This document shows, piece after piece, positions 29,329 through 47,225 of a stretch of 56,059 nt of DNA. The notes beneath the pieces were generated by a model, which made no database searches, was not told the DNA's origin, and saw only the letters and a program-made list of their open reading frames with translations. The first letter of the stretch is position 1. Every line of letters begins with the position of its first letter. Source of the stretch: a virus. The stretch lies in IMG/VR virus record IMGVR_UViG_3300027865_000011, positions 1 to 56,059 of that record. One strand, written 5' to 3'. A program made the position numbers and the translations under genes.

Positions 29329-29483
29329 CCCCCCAAGACGGCATGTTAGGTCGATGACGAGCGAAGCTCGACGCCGCTCACCAGTAAGCAACCCCCGCGG
29401 CGAAACACCGCAGGCCAGCGAGACGGCCTAAGACAGGAGCAAGCTACAGGAGCCCACCGGGATGGGCAAGAACTTTCTCGACC

Positions 29484-29561
29484 GGACTCGTCGACCGGAC
29501 TCGAGAATAGGACTCGTCGACCGGACTCGAGAATAGGACTCGAGAATAGGACTTGACAAGC
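29484..29561 (+). repeat. Array 1: six tandem 13-bp GGACTCG repeats
   Basis: GGACTCG starts at 29484, 29497, 29510, 29523 and 29536, and GGACTTG at 29549: exactly 13-base spacing. The six-base remainders alternate between TCGACC and AGAATA, and a degenerate seventh unit precedes from 29471. The last unit contains TTGACA, the -35 of a putative promoter. The 29329-29483 stretch before it has no gene. Confidence 0.9.
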
Positions 29562-29581
29562 CGCACGCCAAGACGTACGTT
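29553..29581 (+). promoter_or_regulatory. Putative sigma70-type promoter for the recombinase operon
   Basis: Perfect TTGACA (29553-29558), 17-base spacer, TACGTT (29576-29581), 29 bases before the ATG of the 145-aa gene. The -35 lies inside the last 13-bp unit of array 1, so any protein bound to the array would control this promoter. Confidence 0.55.
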
Positions 29582-29610
29582 GACCACGAACACGAAAGAA
29601 GATCAGAGCC

Positions 29611-30048
29611 ATGAGAACGAGAACAGCCGACACAGATCCCCAGATGCGCCACGCCAACACCGACGGCGATTGTGCTCGAGAAAACGTGATGACCATGGCT
29701 ACGCTGCTCATCACAAGACGTACGTCGAAGGTGGCGGAGCAGGTGATCTTGCTTGACATGCTGGGAGCACTCCCCATCGACATGATCCCCACGACACCGA
29801 GCTTGCGACATTTCGTGGTTGATTTGTTGACGGAGGGATTAGCAGCGGCACGCTACGCGCAGTCGAAGGTCTTGGGCGACTACATCCCGGCTACCCTGCT
29901 CCCTGCTCGGGTGGTCGATTGGCTGGTGCTGTGGGCCCTCAACTACGCTGGCGACACTGGCCCGAAGAAGCTCCCACCTCCACCGATCGAGACATCGGGA
30001 GGCCAACTGATCGAGCAAGGCGACGATCCCGAGGCACCAAGAGGATGA
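29611..30048 (+). CDS. Hypothetical protein upstream of the recombinase, 145 aa
   Basis: First gene behind the array 1 promoter; no strong Shine-Dalgarno (AGAAGA upstream). The polar N-terminus is followed by a helical hydrophobic part ('VAEQVILLDMLGALPIDMIP', 'PARVVDWLVLWALNYAGD') and a Pro-rich, acidic tail. The stop overlaps the recombinase ATG, so the two are translated together. Could be a partner or regulator of the recombinase; no known motif (no excisionase-like HTH seen). Confidence 0.5.
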   Translation: MRTRTADTDPQMRHANTDGDCARENVMTMATLLITRRTSKVAEQVILLDMLGALPIDMIPTTPSLRHFVVDLLTEGLAAARYAQSKVLGDYIPATLLPARVVDWLVLWALNYAGDTGPKKLPPPPIETSGGQLIEQGDDPEAPRG

Positions 30049-31007
30049 CCACCCTACCCACAACCACCGCCGGCACGCCCCTCATCACCGTGGCCGACGT
30101 CCGGCGCGATATGCTCGCGGCATTCACCTGCGGGAAGAAGGGTACGACCGTGCGAGCCTATACGCGGGACCTGCGGGACTTCGCCAGGTTCCTCGGCGCA
30201 GAGCACCCCAACGCGGCCATCGCCCTCCTGGTGGGCCAGGGCCAGGGGGAAGCCAACGTCAAGGCCCACGCCTACCGAGCGTGGATGCTCGAGAAGAGAC
30301 TCTCCCCCGCGACGGTCAACCGGAGGCTATCGGCGCTTCGGTCTGTCGTGCGACTGGCCCGGACTTTCGGTTTGGTGTCCTGGGGACTCGATGTCACGTG
30401 CGTCCCCTCGCAGGCCTACCGGAACACCGCTGGCCCGGGGACGCCCGCATTTCAAGCTATGTTACGTAACACGGAGGACCCGCGGGATCGTGCAATCCTG
30501 CGCCTGCTGTTCGACGTGGCGCTGCGCCGGGGGGAGATTGAGAGCTTGGATCTCGAGCACGTGCGCCCACAGGGGGAGGGCTTGTCACTCGAGATCCAAG
30601 GGAAGGGTCGCTGGGAGCGCGAGCTCCTCGAGCTCCCAGCGCCTACTGCAGAAGCTTTGGCCGCATGGCTCGAGATGCGTGGTACGGCCCCGGGGCCCTT
30701 GTTCCTGAATCGGGACTCCGCAAGGAAGGGAGTGGACGGTCGACTCTCGTCCACCAGTATCTACCGGATCGTCCAAGCCGCGGCCGCGCGCGCCGAGGTG
30801 CCGGGGCCCGTGAGTCCCCACCGCTTGCGACACTCGGCAATCACCCGAGCAGCCAAGCTGTTGCAGGGAGACATGGTGAAGCTGGCGAAGTTCAGCCGGC
30901 ACCGCGACATTCGAACGGCCGCGCGCTACGTGGACAATGAGCAGGGTGTAGCTGCTTCGGTGGCGCGGCAGGTGGCGGACCTGGGGACTGATGAGGAGGA
31001 CTCGTGA
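30045..31007 (+). CDS. Tyrosine recombinase / integrase, 320 aa
   Basis: XerC/D-like tyrosine recombinase. The N-terminal SAM-like domain (residues about 13-110) contains 'TTVRAYTRDLRDFARFL' and 'LSPATVNRRLSALRSVVRLA'. Catalytic residues in order: Arg161 ('DVALRRGEIESL'), Lys187 ('QGKGRWERE'), His259 and Arg262 ('SPHRLRHSAIT'), His286 ('SRHRDIRTA') and Tyr295 ('AARYVD'). It may integrate the phage into the host chromosome or resolve genome dimers. No attachment-site core, excisionase or repressor was recognised. GGACTCG repeats overlap its last codons (30998-31017) and flank the region. Start overlaps the preceding stop (ATGA). Confidence 0.9.
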   Translation: MTTLPTTTAGTPLITVADVRRDMLAAFTCGKKGTTVRAYTRDLRDFARFLGAEHPNAAIALLVGQGQGEANVKAHAYRAWMLEKRLSPATVNRRLSALRSVVRLARTFGLVSWGLDVTCVPSQAYRNTAGPGTPAFQAMLRNTEDPRDRAILRLLFDVALRRGEIESLDLEHVRPQGEGLSLEIQGKGRWERELLELPAPTAEALAAWLEMRGTAPGPLFLNRDSARKGVDGRLSSTSIYRIVQAAAARAEVPGPVSPHRLRHSAITRAAKLLQGDMVKLAKFSRHRDIRTAARYVDNEQGVAASVARQVADLGTDEEDS

Positions 31008-31023
31008 CATGGACTCGAACATC
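30998..31023 (+). repeat. GGACTCG pair at the recombinase stop
   Basis: Two units 13 bases apart (30998, 31011). The first ends the recombinase gene (its TGA is inside the unit) and the second lies at codons 2-4 of the 95-aa gene. The same pair with nearly the same spacer (GTGACAT here, GTGACAC there) recurs at 31753/31766. Confidence 0.75.
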
Positions 31024-31296
31024 AAGTGGCCGAGACACAAAGCTTCTCTGTCTGTGGAACATCAGCCACACAAGGCGTACTACGAGTCCATCGCCCAACA
31101 CATGGAGTCTTTGGGAGGCGCGGCACCCTCTTGGGCAACGGAGGACTCCGAGAGGTTGGCATTGGAGAAAGATGAGTTGTGGTTTCTGCTGTGGTATCCG
31201 GACACCCCGGTAGCCTTTTTCTCAGTAGCAGGCCACTCCTTGGAAGACGCGCTCGAGGGGGCACGAATGATCCAGGAACAGGAGGACTCGCGATGA
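31009..31296 (+). CDS. Hypothetical protein, 95 aa
   Basis: ATG right after the recombinase stop with GAGGAGG upstream. Contains 'AYYESIAQHMESLGGAAPSWA' and 'LWFLLWYPDTPVAFFSVAGHSLEDAL', a small alpha/beta build. Unrecognised. It ends with a single GGACTCG unit (31284) overlapping the next start. Confidence 0.55.
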   Translation: MDSNIKWPRHKASLSVEHQPHKAYYESIAQHMESLGGAAPSWATEDSERLALEKDELWFLLWYPDTPVAFFSVAGHSLEDALEGARMIQEQEDSR

Positions 31297-31703
31297 AAGA
31301 TCCGATGGACGATCTGAAAAGCTCCGCAAACACGGTGCTGGGGTTTCGGTACGCGGCTGCTCTTTTCGCAGGCGTGGCGATCTGGGCTCTCTTGGGCTTC
31401 GGGTGGTGCATGCTCTTCTTGGCAGCTTGTGCTTTGGGTTCTGCGTTCTATCTCCGGCGTTCGGCTGACAAGAAGATAGTGATGGACTTGGTTGAGAAAT
31501 CAGCCCAGAAGGAAGCGCCAGCCCGAGGCCCCTTCGTCCGCAACAGCAAGATGGTCCTCGGAGATGATGTGCATCTGGAGTACAAGAACCCTGGCCATAC
31601 CCTCAATGGGCCCATGTCTTGGCGGCTTGGAAAGAGCTTTGGGAAGACCCCAGGCGCCCCGGCATCAAGTACGGGCATCAGTACACCATCAGTCTCGCGT
31701 TGA
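31293..31703 (+). CDS. Small membrane protein, 136 aa
   Basis: ATG overlaps the previous stop and follows AGGAGG. Residues about 18-52 form two adjacent membrane segments ('RYAAALFAGVAIWALLGFGW', 'LFLAACALGSAFYL') followed by a basic stop-transfer patch ('RRSADKK') and a soluble C-terminus. A two-helix membrane protein in the recombinase region may act in superinfection exclusion, but this is a guess. Confidence 0.55.
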   Translation: MKDPMDDLKSSANTVLGFRYAAALFAGVAIWALLGFGWCMLFLAACALGSAFYLRRSADKKIVMDLVEKSAQKEAPARGPFVRNSKMVLGDDVHLEYKNPGHTLNGPMSWRLGKSFGKTPGAPASSTGISTPSVSR

Positions 31704-31739
31704 TGGAAGAGGAGGTGACGGACGGTGGGACGGACGGTG

Positions 31740-31778
31740 GGACTGATGGCGAGGACTCGTGACACGGACTCGAAGGAG
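31740..31778 (+). repeat. Three 13-bp GGACT repeats before the 58-aa gene
   Basis: Units start at 31740 (GGACTGA), 31753 (GGACTCG) and 31766 (GGACTCG), all 13 bases apart. They lie in the 82-base spacer before a gene with a near-perfect ribosome site. Confidence 0.75.
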
Positions 31779-31785
31779 GTGAGAC

Positions 31786-31962
31786 ATGAGTAGGAGGCGC
31801 GATATCTACCAAGCCATCAAGGATGCCGTCGATGAGGGTCGTGGCCTGCACTTGTCGGCGTATGAGGTTCTTCTCTTGTGGCACGACCAAGCTATTCAGC
31901 AGATCATATGGACCGCGCTGGAAGAGCAAGCGGATCTCATAGACCCAGGAGGTGAGACATGA
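31786..31962 (+). CDS. Small helical protein, 58 aa
   Basis: Excellent Shine-Dalgarno AAGGAGGTGA before the ATG. Begins 'MSRRRDIYQAIKDAVDEGRG', then 'SAYEVLLLWHDQAIQQIIWTALEEQ'; wholly helical, HTH-sized, so a small regulator is possible. The last codons form the ribosome site and start of the next gene (ATGA overlap). Confidence 0.6.
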   Translation: MSRRRDIYQAIKDAVDEGRGLHLSAYEVLLLWHDQAIQQIIWTALEEQADLIDPGGET

Positions 31963-32300
31963 GCGAAGCTGAGAAGCGTGAGTACCTGCTCAATCGTGGG
32001 TGGTTCTTCCTACACATCGACACACTCGGAGGCGATTCGAAGGAATACGCCATAAAGCACCCGGACCTGCCGAGCTACGATGCGTTCGGGTTCGAGAGTC
32101 TGGACCCGGTCGAAAACGCCGTCGAGCTACAGCGACATGTCGACAAGGCCCGCGAAGAGGGGCGGCAAGAGGAACAAGAGGCGTGCGCGAAACTGGCGGA
32201 GTCTGCTTTTCCTCCGGCGTTCGGACCGGTTTCCATGTTCTGTCCACGAGAACTTGGCAGGATCATGGCCGAGCGTATCCGCGCCCGAGGTGAGACATGA
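31959..32300 (+). CDS. Hypothetical protein, 113 aa, with GW-F module
   Basis: Overlaps the previous stop by four bases with AGGAGGTGAGAC before the ATG. The first 22 residues ('MSEAEKREYLLNRGWFFLHI') match in pattern those of the next, 35-aa product ('MSESIKEHLEGKGWLFHLET'), showing a tandem partial duplication. The rest has an acidic helix ('KAREEGRQEEQEACAKLAES'). Function unknown. Confidence 0.55.
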   Translation: MSEAEKREYLLNRGWFFLHIDTLGGDSKEYAIKHPDLPSYDAFGFESLDPVENAVELQRHVDKAREEGRQEEQEACAKLAESAFPPAFGPVSMFCPRELGRIMAERIRARGET

Positions 32301-32404
32301 GCGAGAGCATCAAAGAGCATCTTGAGGGCAAGGGGTGGCTGTTCCATTTGGAGACATCCGATTGTGACGGAGCACAGTGTATACACTCGCGTGACGCTAC
32401 CTGA
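32297..32404 (+). CDS. Truncated paralogue of the 113-aa protein, 35 aa
   Basis: Preceded by GAGGTGAGAC and overlapping the upstream stop (ATGA), exactly as for the 113-aa gene. The N-terminus repeats that protein's first segment, then a few Cys-containing residues ('SDCDGAQCIHSRDAT') and a stop. Looks like the start of a second gene copy cut short, or a real micro-protein expressed by coupling. Confidence 0.45.
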   Translation: MSESIKEHLEGKGWLFHLETSDCDGAQCIHSRDAT

Positions 32405-32479
32405 ATGAATCTTGCGAGGCCTCGCGAAGTAGCTGGCCTCTTCTACCGGGGCATGAGCCCCTCAACTTGGAGAACTACC

Positions 32480-32983
32480 GTGAAGCAAGCGCTTCTTTTC
32501 CTGGCCATCATTGGCCTGTTCTTGGTGCCCGCCGTTTCGCTGGCGCAATGCCCTCTCTCGGGTGGTGACGCCAACATCAGGTACAACGAATCGTCAACGG
32601 GTGCTTGGGGGATCCACCACATGGGTCGTTGGGATGTCGATCTTGACGAGTCGTTGATCCCGTTCAACCCTGGCGGGGAGTGGCATTTCCATTCTGCTCT
32701 CATCGTGAGCGCGGACTGTGCTTGTGGCGGTGAGCACAATACGGCGGATTGGGCTACCGAAGCTGGCGGCAAGATGTACATCGACGTACCCGCTGCACGA
32801 GCGGCGGACTGCTTCAAGATCGAGATTGAGATTTGGGTAACGTGGGCCGACGATTCGACGCCGACCAACTACACCCACACGTGGTACACACAAGAGATCG
32901 ACATTTCGAGTTGCGCTCCGCTCGTGACGACCACCACCGGCTGGCATGACCGAAGCCTCCACCGCATGCTGCTCGTGATGTAG
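32480..32983 (+). CDS. Predicted secreted protein, 167 aa
   Basis: GTG at 32480 has GGAG seven bases upstream and gives a classic signal peptide ('MKQALLFLAIIGLFLVPAVSLAQ') with a cleavage site after 'VSLA'. The mature part has several Cys ('QCPLSGG', 'SADCACGGEH', 'AADCFKI', 'ISSCAPL') that could form disulfides, and a beta-sandwich-like composition. The open frame extends upstream to 32405, but that part lacks a ribosome site. A phage-encoded exported protein in an accessory region could be a lysogenic conversion or exclusion factor; this is inferred. Confidence 0.6.
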   Translation: MKQALLFLAIIGLFLVPAVSLAQCPLSGGDANIRYNESSTGAWGIHHMGRWDVDLDESLIPFNPGGEWHFHSALIVSADCACGGEHNTADWATEAGGKMYIDVPAARAADCFKIEIEIWVTWADDSTPTNYTHTWYTQEIDISSCAPLVTTTTGWHDRSLHRMLLVM

Positions 32984-33041
32984 CCAGCCCGACCACGACC
33001 ACCGGAGCATAAGGCAGCACCCCCATGAGCGTCGCCTATGC

Positions 33042-33101
33042 TCCCCTCCTAGAGTCCGAGGAGCAGGACAAGGGACTTGCCTCTCGGACTCTAGGAGGGG
33101 A
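33042..33101. repeat. 19-bp perfect inverted repeat overlapping array 2
   Basis: Bases 33042-33060 are the exact reverse complement of 33083-33101, with a 22-base loop. The right arm contains a 13-bp unit (33086) and part of the next, so the left arm is an inverted unit. No T-run follows. A symmetrical protein-binding site or cruciform is likelier than a terminator. The spacer 32984-33166 has no gene. Confidence 0.8.
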
Positions 33102-33150
33102 CTCGAGGAGGGGACTCGAGGAGGGGACTCGAGATCTGGACTCGGTAACA
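33073..33150 (+). repeat. Array 2: six tandem 13-bp GGACTCG repeats
   Basis: Units start at 33073 (GGACTTG), 33086 (GGACTCT), 33099, 33112, 33125 and 33138 (GGACTCG), 13 bases apart; a degenerate unit precedes at 33060. The two middle units are identical over all 13 bases. Same period and core as array 1, 3.6 kb away on the other side of the recombinase. Confidence 0.9.
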
Positions 33151-33166
33151 CCAAAGGAGATCGACA

Positions 33167-33349
33167 ATGAGCATCGGCGGCTGGCACATAAAAGGCATTC
33201 TGCGCAAGGTCACGAAAATCGAGAACGTCGAACACCACCCCAAGAAGAAGAAGATCACCCTTCACTGCGGGCACACCATCCTGCGGTGGGATGCCGACGT
33301 GCCCAAGAAGCGCGCGCGGTGCCTTGAATGCGCCAAGCGTAGGCCTTGA
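33167..33349 (+). CDS. Small basic zinc-binding protein, 60 aa
   Basis: Starts 17 bases after array 2. Lys-rich middle ('EHHPKKKKITLHCGHTILR') with a likely zinc site formed by 'HCGH' and 'RCLECAKRR' near the end. Small basic zinc proteins usually bind nucleic acid. The ribosome site (GGAGAT) is about nine bases before ATG. Confidence 0.55.
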   Translation: MSIGGWHIKGILRKVTKIENVEHHPKKKKITLHCGHTILRWDADVPKKRARCLECAKRRP

Positions 33350-39684: not shown

Positions 39685-41370
39685 ATGAGCAACCTACCCC
39701 CAAGAGCCTGGACCACGACGTCTGCTTCCCAGATCAAAACCTACGAACTGTGCCCAAGAAAGTGGTGGCTCGAGAAAAGAAAAAGGCTACCTACCGAGCA
39801 CAAGGGGTACCTTTTCTACGGAACGGTCATCCACAACATCGCGGAACGGTTCTTCCGAGCCAGTGACACGGGCCGCGACGCTAAGACAGATGCTCCGGTG
39901 GAGCTCTTCCCGCCTGGTTGGGATCAAGTGCGCGACGGCTGGAACAACGATGGGGAGATCGTGTTCGTTTGCTCGGACGAAGAACGCGACCGCATCATGC
40001 TGCAAGTCGCCGAGGCTATTGCCAACGGAACGTGGGAACGACGACCGGATCGAGAGGTAGAGAGCAAGTTCGTGTTCCCGGTGGGCGACACAGGGGTGGG
40101 GATGTTGGGGTACATCGACCTTTGCATGCCCGGCGAGGTGCAAGACCACAAGACGGCCAAGAACGCTCGATACGCCACTACTCAAGGCAAGTTGAAGAAG
40201 GGAGACAAACAGCTTCTGATCTACGCCAAGGTCATGGCCGAAGCGCTTCGAAAGGGCAGCGGAGCGGACCCGGACAGGATCCTTGTCGGACACAACGTCT
40301 TTCGGAAAGACGGGGTGCCTCCGTACCGGGTGGAGGTCTTCTACTCCGTCGAGATGATCGACGAAGCTTGGGAAGCTGTGATCGAGACCACGCGCGAAAT
40401 GCTCCGCGCGTCCAAGATTGTGTCGCTTGCCGACATCGACAAACCAGACGCCAAAGCATGCTGGGCCTACGGCGGATGTCCTTTCCAAGGCGTGTGCGGC
40501 CAGCGTGAAACTCTCGAGAGATACGAGAAGCGGGTCAAGACCCTAAACGAGACTCGTGCTCAACTGATCCAAGCCCAGTTACAAGGAGATTCCGACATGA
40601 CAGTGTTCGATAAACTGGTCGCGTTGAAGCAAGGTGCTGCAGCAGCAGCAGCAGCCCCGAGCTCACCCGCCGAAGCGATCGCGGTGAATCCGCCCAAGGC
40701 AGCCGGCGTCGCCCGAAGGATGGCGCCTTGGGCGGATGCTGCGTGTCCTGCGTGCGACGAGAACGACGTTGGGGGCTTCAACTCCAAGGGGAACCTCTGT
40801 CGAATCTGCGAGACCTCTGCACCAAGCCGAGGTGTCGACCCTCCCATTTCCCGGTACGAGCTAGATGGTGCTTACTCGTGGCGGCTGAAACTACCGGTTG
40901 AGCAAGCACCCGCCGCGACCACGGTTGCTGAGCAAGCAGCAGCTGCTACGGTCGTCGAGGAGCGGCCGGTGGAGGAAGAGCCGCCCGTGCTCTTGGCCGA
41001 AGAGAAGGCGCTTCCCACCAAGAAAGTTCCGGCAGAGAAGGCTGGCAAGGGCCGTCCACGGAAGAGCTTCACTCTTTGCGTCGGTTGCGCCCCCCTCGTC
41101 ATGCCGAACCCGAACAGCAACTACGTATCAGGGGATCAGCTCTTCTTGCGATTCCGCGAGCAGTTCTGCGAGGAGAAGGGGGTAGACAGCTACTGGGAGT
41201 ACGACAACTTCGCTCGCCGCAACTGCATGGCTCTCGCAGCCGAATCGATAGGGGACACTTTGGGCACTCGCACTGTGGTGTTCTCTTCGTCACACACTCC
41301 AGACGTGCGCGCGTTCGTGGAAGCCCTCAAGGCCGTCGCGTCGGTCGTCTACGTAGCCACCATGGGTTGA
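39685..41370 (+). CDS. Cas4/RecB-like PD-(D/E)XK nuclease with Fe-S cluster site, 561 aa
   Basis: Residues 1-285 form a RecB/Cas4-type exonuclease domain: 'SASQIKTYELCPRKWW' (Cys23), His50 in 'GTVIHNIAERF', Asp145, 'EVQDHKTAKN' (Asp154, Lys156) and 'QLLIYAKVM'. Cys23 with Cys259, Cys265 and Cys271 ('CWAYGGCPFQGVC') would hold a 4Fe-4S cluster. Residues 305-561 are a different part: an Ala-rich linker, a CxxC pair ('ACPACDEN', 'LCRICE') and a C-terminal domain. An internal start with a strong ribosome site lies at codon 305 (next entry). Likely works with the adjacent SNF2-like helicase in recombination or end processing. Confidence 0.85.
   Translation: MSNLPPRAWTTTSASQIKTYELCPRKWWLEKRKRLPTEHKGYLFYGTVIHNIAERFFRASDTGRDAKTDAPVELFPPGWDQVRDGWNNDGEIVFVCSDEERDRIMLQVAEAIANGTWERRPDREVESKFVFPVGDTGVGMLGYIDLCMPGEVQDHKTAKNARYATTQGKLKKGDKQLLIYAKVMAEALRKGSGADPDRILVGHNVFRKDGVPPYRVEVFYSVEMIDEAWEAVIETTREMLRASKIVSLADIDKPDAKACWAYGGCPFQGVCGQRETLERYEKRVKTLNETRAQLIQAQLQGDSDMTVFDKLVALKQGAAAAAAAPSSPAEAIAVNPPKAAGVARRMAPWADAACPACDENDVGGFNSKGNLCRICETSAPSRGVDPPISRYELDGAYSWRLKLPVEQAPAATTVAEQAAAATVVEERPVEEEPPVLLAEEKALPTKKVPAEKAGKGRPRKSFTLCVGCAPLVMPNPNSNYVSGDQLFLRFREQFCEEKGVDSYWEYDNFARRNCMALAAESIGDTLGTRTVVFSSSHTPDVRAFVEALKAVASVVYVATMG
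40597..41370 (+). CDS. Possible internally started C-terminal product of the nuclease gene, 257 aa
   Basis: In frame with the nuclease. AAGGAGATTCCGAC precedes ATG 40597, at ideal spacing. The same 18 bases (GGAGATTCCGACATGACA) occur in the protease gene at 51498-51515, again at an in-frame internal start between two domains. The product would hold the zinc-ribbon-like CxxC pairs and the C-terminal domain without the nuclease. In phages such internal starts make stand-alone partner proteins. Translation is not proven. Confidence 0.4.
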   Translation: MTVFDKLVALKQGAAAAAAAPSSPAEAIAVNPPKAAGVARRMAPWADAACPACDENDVGGFNSKGNLCRICETSAPSRGVDPPISRYELDGAYSWRLKLPVEQAPAATTVAEQAAAATVVEERPVEEEPPVLLAEEKALPTKKVPAEKAGKGRPRKSFTLCVGCAPLVMPNPNSNYVSGDQLFLRFREQFCEEKGVDSYWEYDNFARRNCMALAAESIGDTLGTRTVVFSSSHTPDVRAFVEALKAVASVVYVATMG

Positions 41371-41384
41371 GCTGAGGAAATCCT

Positions 41385-43538
41385 GTGCCGAATGCCCTGC
41401 ATAGATTCTTGGAGCGCCGAGCGGCAGAAGCTCAGCAGAAAGCACTTGCGACACCCACTGCGGTGGCCGCGGCGCTTTCTGCTGCCAAGAGCTCTTCAGA
41501 GGGCTCTGCTCCAGACAGGGCGAATCCTCTGCATGCCTTCTTGACCAACCAACAGGCAAAAGAAAACCCCGCGGCCTATGCCGAGGTGCGCAGGATCGTG
41601 AGGCTGCCGACGGTCGACGGATACCCACAAGAAACCCGAGATGCCTACCAGCGAGAGGTTGTGATCGCCGAGCATCTCGAACGAGGGTTTCGTCTCTACG
41701 ATCTGCAATGCGACGCGGTGCTCGCCTACCGAGACCATGGCTGCCTTTTCGCTCCTATCGGTGTGGGCTGGGGGAAGACGCTCATCACGTTGCTGATCGC
41801 AGGGGAGGCCTTCGCGAAGGGTTTCCATCGGAGCATGCTGATCGTGCCTCCCCAAGTCATGTCTCAGCTCATTCGGAGAGATCTGCCCTGGGCACGGCAG
41901 AGGGTGGCTCTGCACGGCGTCCCGTTCATCCAGGTGTTGGGCTCGCCAGCAAAAAGGATGGCCATAGCCGGTAGCGGACGGAGGGGCTGCTACATCATGC
42001 CGTCGTCGATGCTGTCTGCCCCCAACGCCGAGGACGTGCTCCAAGCCATCGCTCCACAACTCGTCATCGGCGACGAGGCCCACCATCTCCGCAACCCAAA
42101 CAGCGCGAGGACGAAGCGGTTGCTGCGCTACATGAACAGCGTCGCGCCGGAGGTAGTCTGGCTCTCTGGCACAATCACCGCCAAGAGCGTGCTGGACTAC
42201 CTGCACCTCGTCTGTCTCATGGATGGTCTGTGTCCGCTCCCCAGGAAGAACGCCATAGCCCGAGAGTGGGCCGCGGTGTTGGATTCTGGGGCAGAACCCA
42301 ACGAGCGCGAGACAGGCCCCGTGCGGCCGTTGATAGAGTGGACCCTCAAACTCCCAGGAGCTCCTGACTGCCCCATGAACGGCATGGGATTTAGGAGAGC
42401 CTACAAGCACCGGTTGCTCACCAACCCGGCTGTCGTGGCGACTGGGGACCAGGAACTGGGGGTCTCATTGACCATCGCCCAGCGCAGAGTGCCTTTGGAG
42501 GAGGGCGCCCCCGGAGCCACCGAACTGCGAGAGCTCCAGCAGGGCGTCGATACTCAGTGGGTAGCGCCCAACGGGGACGAGATCGATCACGCATTCCACA
42601 AGTTCCGATGGCTCTTCGAACTGTCCGCAGGCATCTTCAATGACCTCTTCTGGCCAGCACCCGAAGTCTTGGCCGCGCGCCGAGACATCTCGGAAGCCGG
42701 CGCAAGCGCTCTGCTGCACAAAGCCAAAGAGCACCACGAGCACCTTCAAGAGTTTCGAAAGACTCTGCGCTCTTGGCTGCTATCCCATCATATTAAGGGT
42801 CTCGATACCCCATTCCTGGTGGCTGGCGACATGGCCCGGCACCAAGGAGCAAACGTGGGATTAGAGCTCTACGAAAGCTGGCGCTCGGTCAAGGATCTGG
42901 AAGACGCCACCCCAGATCTGCCGGTGCGAGACAGCCGCATCGTCCGAGTGTGCGACTACAAAATCCGATTTGCCGAAGCTTGGGCTCGAGAGCACCAGAA
43001 AGGAATCATCTGGTACCACAACGCAGGAGTGGGGCAGTGGTTGGCGGAACGATTGCCGGACGCGCTGTTCTGTCCTGCGGGACGGCCGCACGATGCAGCG
43101 ATCATCGACCCCGAGACAGCCAACCGCATCGTGATAGCGAGCATAAGCGCCCACGGTACCGGGAAGAACCTCCAACACCACAGTGACCAACTCTTCGTGC
43201 AGTGGCCGAGACCTGCGGCGACAGCCGAACAAGTTCTTGGGCGCTTGCATCGCGTGGGGCAAATGGCCGACGAGTTGGTGGTCAATATTGCTTGCGACCT
43301 TCCAATAGCCCGCGAAGGGCCCGCTGCTTTCGATGAGCTTCTCTACGCAGCCATGCTTCAAGATGCTCTGTACATCCACCAGACCACCGGGTCTAGACAG
43401 AAAGTGATCTATGCCAACTACGAAACGCTTCCCAGGATTTTCCCATCCGCTGTCCTGGAGGAAAGAGGATTTGAACTGACCCACAGACTCGACGCATCGC
43501 AGCAGAAGACTCTCACCGAACGCTTCTCCAACGCCTGA
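41385..43538 (+). CDS. SNF2-like SF2 helicase/ATPase, 717 aa
   Basis: GTG start at 41385 with GAGGA upstream. Walker A 'GVGWGKT' (126-132) and DEAH box 'GDEAHH' (229-234), with motif III 'WLSGTITAKS' near 257-266. The C-terminal half has 'VQWPRPAATAEQVLGRLHRVGQ', the motif V-VI arginine-finger region typical of SNF2-type translocases. The N-terminus has two short related segments ('NALHRFLERRAAEAQ' and 'NPLHAFLTNQQAKEN'). Probably a DNA translocase in replication or recombination, alongside the Cas4-like nuclease, single-strand binding protein and polymerase. Confidence 0.88.
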   Translation: MPNALHRFLERRAAEAQQKALATPTAVAAALSAAKSSSEGSAPDRANPLHAFLTNQQAKENPAAYAEVRRIVRLPTVDGYPQETRDAYQREVVIAEHLERGFRLYDLQCDAVLAYRDHGCLFAPIGVGWGKTLITLLIAGEAFAKGFHRSMLIVPPQVMSQLIRRDLPWARQRVALHGVPFIQVLGSPAKRMAIAGSGRRGCYIMPSSMLSAPNAEDVLQAIAPQLVIGDEAHHLRNPNSARTKRLLRYMNSVAPEVVWLSGTITAKSVLDYLHLVCLMDGLCPLPRKNAIAREWAAVLDSGAEPNERETGPVRPLIEWTLKLPGAPDCPMNGMGFRRAYKHRLLTNPAVVATGDQELGVSLTIAQRRVPLEEGAPGATELRELQQGVDTQWVAPNGDEIDHAFHKFRWLFELSAGIFNDLFWPAPEVLAARRDISEAGASALLHKAKEHHEHLQEFRKTLRSWLLSHHIKGLDTPFLVAGDMARHQGANVGLELYESWRSVKDLEDATPDLPVRDSRIVRVCDYKIRFAEAWAREHQKGIIWYHNAGVGQWLAERLPDALFCPAGRPHDAAIIDPETANRIVIASISAHGTGKNLQHHSDQLFVQWPRPAATAEQVLGRLHRVGQMADELVVNIACDLPIAREGPAAFDELLYAAMLQDALYIHQTTGSRQKVIYANYETLPRIFPSAVLEERGFELTHRLDASQQKTLTERFSNA

Positions 43539-44185: not shown

Positions 44186-45130
44186 TTGGCAACGTACTAC
44201 AACGAAATCGATCCTTTCGCTGTGTCCTGGTTGCGAAATCTGATCTCTCGGAAGTTGATAGCCGATGGTGAGGTAGATGACAGGAGTATAGAAGATGTTT
44301 CCCCAGCAGAACTCCGGGGATACAAGCAATGCCACTTCTTCGCAGGGATCGGTGGATGGTCACTTGCCCTGCGACAAGCAGGATGGCCGGATGATCGATC
44401 AGTGTGGACAGGATCCTGCCCTTGCCAACCTTTCAGCACGGCAGGTAAAGGAGAGGGGTTTGCTGACAAGCGGCACCTGTGGCCCTCCTTCTTCTGGCTC
44501 ATCCAACAGTGCAGACCTGACACTGTCTTTGGGGAACAAGTTGCAGGAAAGCCAGGTCAAGCTTGGCTCGACCTTGTATCGACAGACCTGGAAAATGAGC
44601 ACTACCGCTGCGGGTCGGCAGTTACCGCGGCTTGTGGCGTCGGGGCGCCGCATCTTAGACGACGCATTTATTGGGTGGCCGACACCCACGGTAAAAGACA
44701 GTTCGAACGCCAGGAACCGAACAGCTCAAAGAAGCTCCCAAGACAGCAAGCACCACGACGGAGAGACGTTGGTGGATGCTGTGGACCTCACAGGATGGCC
44801 GACGCCCAGCGCGAACGAAGCAGGAGGAACCCCAGAGCAATTCCTCGCACGCAAACGAAGAGCTGTCGCACAAGGGAAGTCCTTGGGGATCTCGTTGACG
44901 AGTTTGAATCTTGTGGCGGGCCTGACAGGCCCCAACCGACGAACGGCTTCTGGCGAGATCCTGATTGGCTCCTCTGCCGAGATGACAAGTGGCGGTCAGT
45001 TGAACCCGGAACATTCCCGTTGGTTGATGGGCTTCCCGGCCGAGTGGGAAGACTGCGCGGATACGGGAATGCAATCGTCGTCCCGCAAGCGCGCCAGTTC
45101 GTCGAAGCCTACCAAGAAGGAAGCAATTAA
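44186..45130 (+). CDS. C5-cytosine DNA methyltransferase, 314 aa
   Basis: Dcm-type enzyme that methylates cytosine C5, likely a solitary modification gene protecting phage DNA, as no restriction enzyme is seen. Motif I '[12 protein letters not shown]', motif IV '[12 protein letters not shown]' with catalytic Cys, motif VI-like 'VFGEQVAG', motif VIII '[10 protein letters not shown]', motif X '[16 protein letters not shown]'. TTG at 44186 is chosen: GGGAGAGA lies just upstream and the longer frame runs back into the terminator. An independent long open frame overlaps it (next entry). The DNA polymerase starts one base after the stop. Confidence 0.9.
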
Positions 45131-45131
45131 G
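44295..45131 (+). CDS. Overlapping open frame inside the methyltransferase gene, in phase with the DNA polymerase
   Basis: 279 codons without a stop in another frame across most of the methyltransferase gene, running straight into the polymerase. It reads like a protein: '[19 protein letters not shown]', '[19 protein letters not shown]', two 'GWPTP' repeats and '[20 protein letters not shown]'. I recall similar hypothetical proteins annotated over phage dcm genes, with the same GWPTP and 'RWLMGFPPEW' segments. The latter also resembles a C-terminal signature of other phage DNA methylases. ATG 44295 has no convincing ribosome site. It could be a real second protein, a 976-aa polymerase fusion, or a by-product of methyltransferase codon conservation. 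Confidence 0.35.
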
Positions 45132-47225
45132 ATGCGTCTGATAGCGATGGACACCGAGACCTACCCGATGAAAACAGGGTGCACACTGCCCAAGCCGGTG
45201 TGCTTGCAACTCGCCACCAGGGCCAGCGAGGACGCATTAGAGATCGAGGTGCTTCTGCGAGACGACCCAAGAGCTCTCCAACTCTTGATTGGTGCCCTCC
45301 AAGATCCCGAAGTCCACTTCACTGGAGTCTACATAGCCTACGACTTCGGGGTGCTCTGCGGTCAGTGGCCCCAGCTATGGTCCCTCGTCTGGCAAGCCTA
45401 CGAAGACGAGCGCATCCATGATCTAACCCTCATGGACAAGTTGCTGCGGATCAGCACCACCGGGGATATCGAATACTTCTCCCTGCCAGACGGATCCCGC
45501 GGGAAGCTGGGCTACACGCTTAGCGATCTTGAGAATCGCTGGCTGGGCGTCGATCGATCGGAGGATAAAAAATCGGCCGACTCTTGGAGGGTCCGGTACT
45601 GCGAGCTGGATGGCGTCCCTGTGGCGGAGTGGCCCGCAGATGCTCTGCGGTACGCAAAGGACGACGTGGTAGGTCCTCTTCTGGTCCACGAAGCAATCCT
45701 CCAAGAAGCCAACCAAGAGGGGCACGGCAGCATCGTCACAGAGGCCTTTCAGGCGGCCACCAGCTTCGTCCTGTGCCTTTCAACGGCGTGGGGCATGGAA
45801 GTGGACCCCGAGCGCGTGGCGCGCTTGGCAAAGGCTCTCGACGAACGGATCGGCCCGGAGAAGATGCAACCGCTCTACGATGCAGGGCTCTTGTCTCCGG
45901 CTGTTCCGCCAATGCCCTACGCCAAAGGCACGATCGACAAAGCGACTGGCTTGGTCAAGATGAAGAAGGCCAAGCCAGAGGCCCGCAAGGATACAGACAT
46001 CAAAAAGTACATCGAGAAGATGTGCAACGACCGCGGTCTCGAAGTCAAGAGGACGCCCACCAACCAAGTCTGCAAAGACGCTGATGTACTCCGCCGGCTC
46101 GGAGATCTGGGCCTCCCTCTGCTGAGTCTCCTCGCTGATAGAGAAGAGATCATCAAGCTGAGAAGCACCTACTTACCGGTCTTGCAGAACGATCAAGGCG
46201 TAGTCCACTTCGGCTTCAACGCCTTGGTGACATCTGGCAGAACTTCCAGCCACGGAAGCAAGCTTTTCGCCTCCACCAACGGACAGAACCAGCCACGAGC
46301 CGGCGGAGAACTGTCCACGCGAGAGTGCTTTGTAGCACGCAAGGGGTGGATCCTTTGCGCGTCGGATTACGCGGGCCAAGAGTTGACTTCTGTAGGCCAA
46401 GTGACCCACAGTCTCTTCCCCGGCCAGAGCAAGCACCGCGAAAAGAACCTCGCTGGCTACGACCTGCACGCCTTCTTGGGCGCTCAACTCTGCGCCCATA
46501 TGGACGAAGACTTTGGGCAACTCGTGACCTCGCGCGGGCTGGATATCGATGAGACCTATCGAGCATTCCTCCAGTTCAAAACCTCCGAGGACGAGGAGCT
46601 TCGAAGACTCTTCCAGCATTACCGCCGGTTCGCGAAGCCCACGGGGCTGGGGTACCCCGGCGGATTGGGGCCCAAGACGTTCGTCGAGTTCGCCCGCGCC
46701 TCCTACGGGGTTGTCGTCGATCTGGCCACCGCGGAACTTCTGCGAAATATTTGGTTCAAGACCTACCCTGAGATGCGGCAGTATTTCAGCTGGATCAACG
46801 GACAGACAGACCCGCGCAACGTGGGCAAGCATGCCTACAAGTCGCCCATGGGCATGTACCGCGCGGGTTGTCGTTTCCCCGAAGCGGCCAACGGAATGGC
46901 GATGCAGACTCCCTCAGCAGAAGGGGCCAAGATCGCGGACTTCCGAATCACTCGGGAAATGTACGACCCTTCTCAGGGGTCGATTCTCCTCGGCTGTCGG
47001 ATGCCGAACTTCATCCACGACGAGTTTTTGACTGAGTTGCCGGACGATGATCGCGCACACGATCGCGTTATGCGTATCGAGGAACTCATGGTAGACTCGA
47101 TGCGCATGATTCTGCCGGACGTGGAAAGCAAGGTCGAGTCCGCGCTGATGTACAGGTGGTACAAGAGCGCCGAACCTCGCTTCGACGATACAGGTCGGTT
47201 GATCGCTTGGGAGCCAAACAAATGA
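45132..47225 (+). CDS. polA: Family A DNA polymerase with 3'-5' exonuclease, 697 aa
   Basis: Replicative polymerase of the Pol I family. Exonuclease motif 'MDTETYP' (Asp7, Glu9) opens the protein. Motif A is '[12 protein letters not shown]' near residues 409-420 (usual form DYSQIEL), motif B '[16 protein letters not shown]' near 497-512, and motif C 'HDEF' near 629. In motif B the residue equivalent to E. coli Phe762 is Leu, and Tyr766 is replaced by Gly in the phage-type 'PGGLG' loop. AAGGAAG lies about nine bases before ATG 45132, one base after the methyltransferase stop; an upstream in-frame extension exists (previous entry). Confidence 0.95.

Follow-up and report, generated by a model that had tools for sequence, protein, structure and literature searches.

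The window analysed here is a whole IMG/VR virus record (IMGVR_UViG_3300027865_000011) of 56,059 bases, in which short units with the core GGACT recur on one strand at a period of exactly 13 bp. A preliminary description had reported two tandem arrays of six such units, starting at 29484 and 33073, and both were confirmed, with variant units in each: the final unit of array 1 reads GGACTTG, and units 1 and 2 of array 2 are GGACTTG and GGACTCT. The triplet at 31740/31753/31766 and the single unit at 31284 were likewise found as described. The phased units reported as a pair at 30998/31011 are present but really belong to a triplet, since a GGACTGA unit precedes them at 30985, and the two triplets form a near-identical 33-bp repeat, each copy being located at the end of a reading frame (Table 1).

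A scan of the whole record for GGACTN8GGACT gave 14 matches on the forward strand, none on the reverse strand and none for the reversed-pattern control. All 14 pairs are on the + strand within 29.5-33.2 kb, against a chance expectation of 0.11 calculated from the number of GGACT words in the 10 kb upstream of the DUF5906 gene. It had been proposed that the observation would fall if phased GGACTCG were equally common elsewhere in the genome, and no phased GGACT pair occurs outside 29.4-33.2 kb. The number of GGACTCG words regardless of phase is marginal (25 versus 15.0 +/- 4.6, reached by 3 of 100 shuffles); it is the phasing, not the raw count, that lies far beyond chance.

The 19-bp perfect inverted repeat said to overlap array 2 was also found; in it, unit 2 of that array pairs with an inverted unit. 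The hairpin predicted there has a folding energy of -70.1 kcal/mol, versus -51.4 +/- 3.9 kcal/mol in shuffled sequences. The TTGACA noted in the last unit of array 1 is real as well, with TACGTT 17 bp further on. On the minus strand, array 1 contains a promoter-like TTGTCA-N18-TATTCT (29559-29311, - strand) with a terminator-like hairpin about 200 bp further, possibly producing a small antisense RNA, although the match is at chance level.

Table 1. Phased GGACT units and neighbouring features of the window (ORF, open reading frame; aa, amino acids)
Feature	Position	Strand	Remarks
Array 1	29484..29561	+	Six 13-bp units, core GGACTCG; final unit at 29549 is GGACTTGACA
Promoter-like TTGACA-N17-TACGTT	29553..29581	+	Overlaps last unit of array 1; 5' of 145-aa ORF
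145-aa ORF	29611..30048	+	3' of array 1; no Pfam or PHROG match
Tyrosine recombinase, 320 aa	30045..31007	+	SAM-like N-terminal domain recognised
First triplet of 13-bp phased GGACT units	30985..31017	+	At recombinase stop and next start codon; units 30985/30998/31011
Single GGACTCG	31284..31290	+	Adjoins Shine-Dalgarno sequence of ORF starting at 31293
Second triplet	31740..31772	+	Near-identical copy of 30985-31017; just 5' of start at 31786
Perfect 19-bp inverted repeat	33042-33060 / 33083-33101		Overlaps array 2
Array 2	33073..33150	+	Six 13-bp units; directly 5' of 60-aa ORF at 33167
DUF5906 protein, 877 aa	37050..39683	+	Replication protein of PrimPol-SF3 helicase type; conserved in group
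PD-(D/E)XK nuclease	39685-41370	+	Conserved replication module
DEAD-type helicase	41385-43538	+	Conserved replication module
SSB-like protein, 173 aa	43588-44109	+	Weak DUF669 match only; conserved module
PolA-type DNA polymerase	44295-47225	+	Conserved module

Phased sites in a group of related phages

When 2.9 million viral contigs were scanned for three phased GGACTCG units, three contigs were returned, two of which encode the replication module of the window with the gene order kept and with 26-41% protein identity. A looser three-unit pattern gave a fourth contig, likewise a member of this group. It was therefore the arrays, and not homology, that led to phages with a common module, which in the distant relatives comprises the DUF5906 PrimPol-SF3 helicase, the PD-(D/E)XK protein, the DEAD helicase, the SSB-like protein and PolA (26-43% identity). 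Homology-first searches with alignments of the DUF5906 protein and of the helicase gave ten contigs and 34 loci, respectively. Whole records of the relatives found in this way were scanned for GGACTN8GGACT, and every match was on the module strand; the reversed-pattern control gave 0 matches in the first set and 2 in the viral records of the second set. Among 50,697 phage records the DUF5906 protein had no relative and the helicase had one distant relative. A contig from a metagenome-assembled genome of Deltaproteobacteria (L080) was considered as evidence for the host and was not accepted.

The upstream regions were compared in the 17 genomes in which 5 kb or more precedes DUF5906. Twelve of these carry 13-bp GGACT pairs upstream of the module, with 57 pairs in total versus 1.35 expected from the number of GGACT words; one further positive member was found later. 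Two of the twelve (G012 and G020) depend on one pair each, with modest permutation values (50 and 39 of 2000). When 34,816 pairings of a 5-mer with a spacing were ranked over the upstream regions of 19 genomes, GGACT at 13 bp came out on top both in total (57) and in number of genomes (12); the same regions contained 3 pairs at 12 bp and none at 14 bp. Apparent enrichments at 18 and 31 bp were rejected, since a conserved GGDEF motif and overlapping units account for most of them. No opposite-strand pairs occur upstream of the module, in agreement with the whole-record scans. Phased sites are present in several deep lineages of the helicase tree, and members with arrays span 41-70% GC. The phased-site observation is real and extends beyond the window.

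A GGDEF (diguanylate cyclase-like) protein is encoded in the early region of several relatives (L028:4331-5437, L031:5000-5542 and L033:1538-2059, with a homologue at L035:8683-9384), which is unusual for a phage. Its conserved motif DSLTGLYNRR happens to yield a 13-bp GGACTC pair in some relatives. Of the 57 pairs, 3-5 are located in this gene and are possibly protein-driven; every positive genome remains positive when they are dropped.

Slippage does produce tandem arrays of GGACT words in unrelated contigs (L009, L091, L093 and L094), and the sites could in principle be functionless minisatellites. However, the units in those contigs are identical or nearly so, whereas the arrays of the group have random spacers around the same core in diverged phages of very different GC. 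Of nine contigs recovered in a final scan for four phased GGACT units, five are in the group and four are minisatellites, and no four-unit array with varied spacers was seen outside the group; two of the contigs (L090 and L092) belong to one 41% GC member with five units and differing spacers. Furthermore, all heterogeneous chains of at least four units with a spacing that is not a multiple of three 5' of the module were of the GGACT type, and members without GGACT pairs had no alternative heterogeneous arrays of such spacing. Slippage is accordingly a most improbable explanation.

Genes around the sites

The preliminary description tied the arrays to the recombinase region. They do flank the recombinase gene in the window, but in the relatives they are tied to the early region 5' of the module. 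That they might be arm-type sites for the tyrosine recombinase, or sites of recombination on either side of its gene, is suggested by this flanking position, but PF00589 was found in only one of 15 records, the window, while nearly all 15 have phased GGACT. In addition, only the SAM-like N-terminal domain was recognised in the recombinase, with no separate arm-binding domain. With no recombinase in the other 14 scanned records, arm sites cannot explain the arrays in general and are hardly credible; the recombinase lies outside the conserved system. A homologue search for the recombinase in viral contigs and phages found none, and a nucleotide search of the region in phages found nothing beyond 64 bp of a helicase gene.

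Two other proposals are not supported either. The arrays had been considered dense targets for a CcrM-type methylase, but GANTC is neither enriched nor depleted in the window (209 versus 204 expected), and the arrays of relatives use GGACTT or GGACTG, which do not contain GANTC. Against a partition site, ParA (PF13614) was absent in the 15 records; ParM and TubZ types were not searched by name.

The 145-aa ORF downstream of array 1 had no relative upstream of the module in other members, and the structure model of its product was of low confidence (mean pLDDT 46) and unusable. The window's small early proteins had no homologues, except that the 60-aa zinc-ribbon-like protein matched weakly in G013. 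The ORF at 31293-31703 apparently continues in another frame (31568-31762, ...AAWKELWEDPRRPGIKYGHQYTISL...GTDGEDS), which suggests a frameshift; its end matches GTDEEDS at the C-terminus of the recombinase, as the same GGACT triplet is present in both. Between the two arrays is a small ORF (32405-32983) with a signal-peptide-like N-terminus (KQALLFLAIIGLFLVPAVSLAQC). Within the module, the PolA-type polymerase has a fused N-terminal part of about 270 residues that matches PHROG 1008 'DNA methyltransferase' and has no Pfam match there. The DEAD helicase of G003 (L023:13490-16867) has a large insert at the Walker A lysine/threonine, which starts with Cys, ends with HN before Thr and is intein-like.

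Function of the sites

The GGACT core was fixed by the search and is the only conserved part; the three bases after it show a weak CGA preference (C 58%, G 48%, A 37%), and the spacer is random. Single GGACT words on the module strand number about 2-4 per kb upstream of the module in most members, versus about 1 or less on the other strand, and the strand bias is small downstream of the module. The main arrays lie about 1.9-9 kb upstream of DUF5906. The clusters are enriched near gene starts, with 54% being within 100 bp of the next Shine-Dalgarno-type start versus 27% of random points (p = 0.006), and half of them are more than 70 bp from the next start. In G024 there are four cassettes of three to five GGACT, each directly 5' of one early gene. 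Promoter-like sequences overlap or adjoin the arrays in the window and in G015 (GGACTTGCTC-N16-TATACT at the array), G024 (TTGACA-N17-TACGCT overlapping GGACT sites) and G039 (TTGACA-N17-TACACT, 5' of the array). Short palindromes with loops of 1-5 bases (e.g. CTGCCATTTTGGCAG, CTGCCAATCTGGCAG, TGTACAGATTCTGTACA) are found just 5' of the GGACT array in G002, G015 and G039 (L034, L083/L048 and L092), and these may be sites of a second regulator.

The GGACT units are almost certainly a conserved control site. As to what they control, we tentatively favour, at just short of an even chance, directional sites that govern the early genes of these uncultivated tailed phages in the manner of operators and stoperators. 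The units would be binding sites in double-stranded DNA for a protein that recognises GGACT, best as GGACTCGA, with neighbouring molecules bound side by side at a fixed 13-bp register. Arrays of 4-6 units in control regions would then serve as operators, and the pairs and triplets further along the early operon as stoperator-like sites.

The spacing is rigid, since 12-bp pairs are few and 14-bp pairs were not seen while the spacers themselves are random, and a rigid period argues for double-stranded DNA. This bears on the alternative that the motif acts in RNA, GGACU in early transcripts being bound by a phage or host RNA-binding protein that affects translation, decay or antitermination. Strict strand polarity and the placement of sites within mRNAs and near start codons would suit such a role, but an exact spacing of 13 with almost no 12 or 14 is unexpected for flexible single strands, and some arrays (window, G015) are apparently 5' of a promoter. 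No shared or conserved RNA fold was found around the sites, and a search of Rfam gave no match above the gathering score, only chance microRNA-type matches on the array 2 hairpin. We consider action in RNA improbable.

A serious rival is that the arrays are iterons of a replication origin, at which the DUF5906 PrimPol-SF3 helicase binds or primes to start phage replication; we regard this as possible but doubtful. With their 3.6-kb separation, the two six-unit arrays of the window are reminiscent of the ori/crr pair in satellite phage P4. Apart from the virion genes, only the replication module is conserved throughout the compared genomes that have sites, whereas the early genes are not. In 5 of 10 genomes the GC-skew minimum is no more than 3 kb from the main array, and in 9 of 10 no more than 12 kb, which fits an origin without proving it, as the minima are confounded by divergent gene layout and kinship, with G002 as an exception. 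The DUF5906 protein resembles the NrS-1 PrimPol, the SaPI5 primase-helicase and the Rep helicases of adeno-associated virus in fold, and NrS-1 also in sequence (profile match to the NrS-1 primase, E = 1e-9). It is this likeness, together with the priming of NrS-1 PrimPol at a specific template motif (PMC8718748), that makes an initiator worth weighing. Against it, the pairs are spread over kilobases, inside genes and near gene starts, G024 has four separate cassettes, and G014, G030 and G034 have DUF5906 but no phased sites. The dispersed copies might, with similar doubt, be secondary or incompatibility-type sites, or primase recognition sites, the latter of which would explain the polarity.

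Polarity argues for a process with direction, the location of the sites in the early region 5' of the module argues for early genes, and the scattered copies argue for more than an origin. Together with the rigid period, these are the reasons that we prefer directional early-gene control to an origin; the two are compatible and not mutually exclusive. Several results nevertheless weigh against early-gene control. Of the members with 5 kb or more of upstream sequence, five (G014, G024, G027, G030 and G034) have no 13-bp pairs, and the spacings within the G024 cassettes (26-30, 11 and 16 bp) are not 13-phased. Several clusters are inside genes or far from a recognised start, particularly in G005, G008, G011 and G039. 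The promoter calls were made by eye, and that at 29553 is weak because a consensus promoter scan of the window listed no + strand site, this one included. Furthermore, 119 early ORFs gave no helix-turn-helix (HTH), ribbon-helix-helix or sigma match among the 25 families listed, and HTH_3 was above the cut-off in only 1 of 15 records.

The early genes are mostly not common to the members, while the replication module and virion genes are. The GGACT core has persisted while the neighbouring genes have not, so whatever reads the core must be either conserved or supplied by the host, and a specific binding partner can therefore be tested for directly. One candidate is the PrimPol-SF3 replication protein doubling as an early-gene regulator, because conservation across the group is limited to replication and virion proteins; the other is a small, fast-evolving phage protein. 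A bolder and rather unlikely possibility, by analogy, is that the PrimPol-SF3 protein reads this one-strand 13-bp code as both origin and early-gene switch, the code remaining unchanged while the early genes were wholly replaced; it would then be the prokaryotic equivalent of large T antigen acting at its GAGGC sites. The sites amount to a cis-regulatory code that a pattern search alone can detect, and such a search gives direct access to members of a phage group that is otherwise uncharted.

Comparison with known systems

Iteron origins of PrimPol/SF3 systems include those of P4 alpha and SaPI Rep. With these and with NrS-1 the GGACT system shares arrays of short repeats and a similar replication protein close by. 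The NrS-1 PrimPol recognises an 8-nt template motif that is present twice at the genome centre (PMC8718748, PMC7102993), whereas the GGACT sites number in the dozens, are polar, extend over several kb and precede early genes.

The start-associated sequences of cluster K mycobacteriophages are asymmetric 13-bp repeats that all face the same way and occur close to start codons in the non-structural half of the genome; each is a single word similar to a ribosome binding site and is placed 3-7 bp from the start (PMC3203893). The GGACT units, in contrast, form tandem arrays with random spacers, several of them far from starts, and are not of this kind.

The stoperators of L5 and Bxb1 (cluster A mycobacteriophages) are short asymmetric sites of about 13 bp, oriented with transcription, some in promoters and many genome-wide, and in L5 they are single 13-bp sites bound by monomers with no cooperativity (PMC6550527, PMC9283540). 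Unlike these, the GGACT sites have a 5-8 bp core at an exact 13-bp period, form arrays of up to six units and are confined to the early region, where no cognate HTH repressor was recognised in the ORFs. By membership the system is therefore not of the L5 type, because the search for a cognate repressor found none and nothing in L5 corresponds to the 13-bp register. It would be a stoperator-like system with a built-in 13-bp register, without description in the literature searched. The preliminary interpretation is thus partly supported: among its options, dispersed operators like those of L5 fit best, since the GGACT sites are also short and asymmetric, all 13-bp pairs are on the module strand in every member, and the main arrays are in control regions, as judged from promoter calls by eye, with dispersed clusters beyond them.

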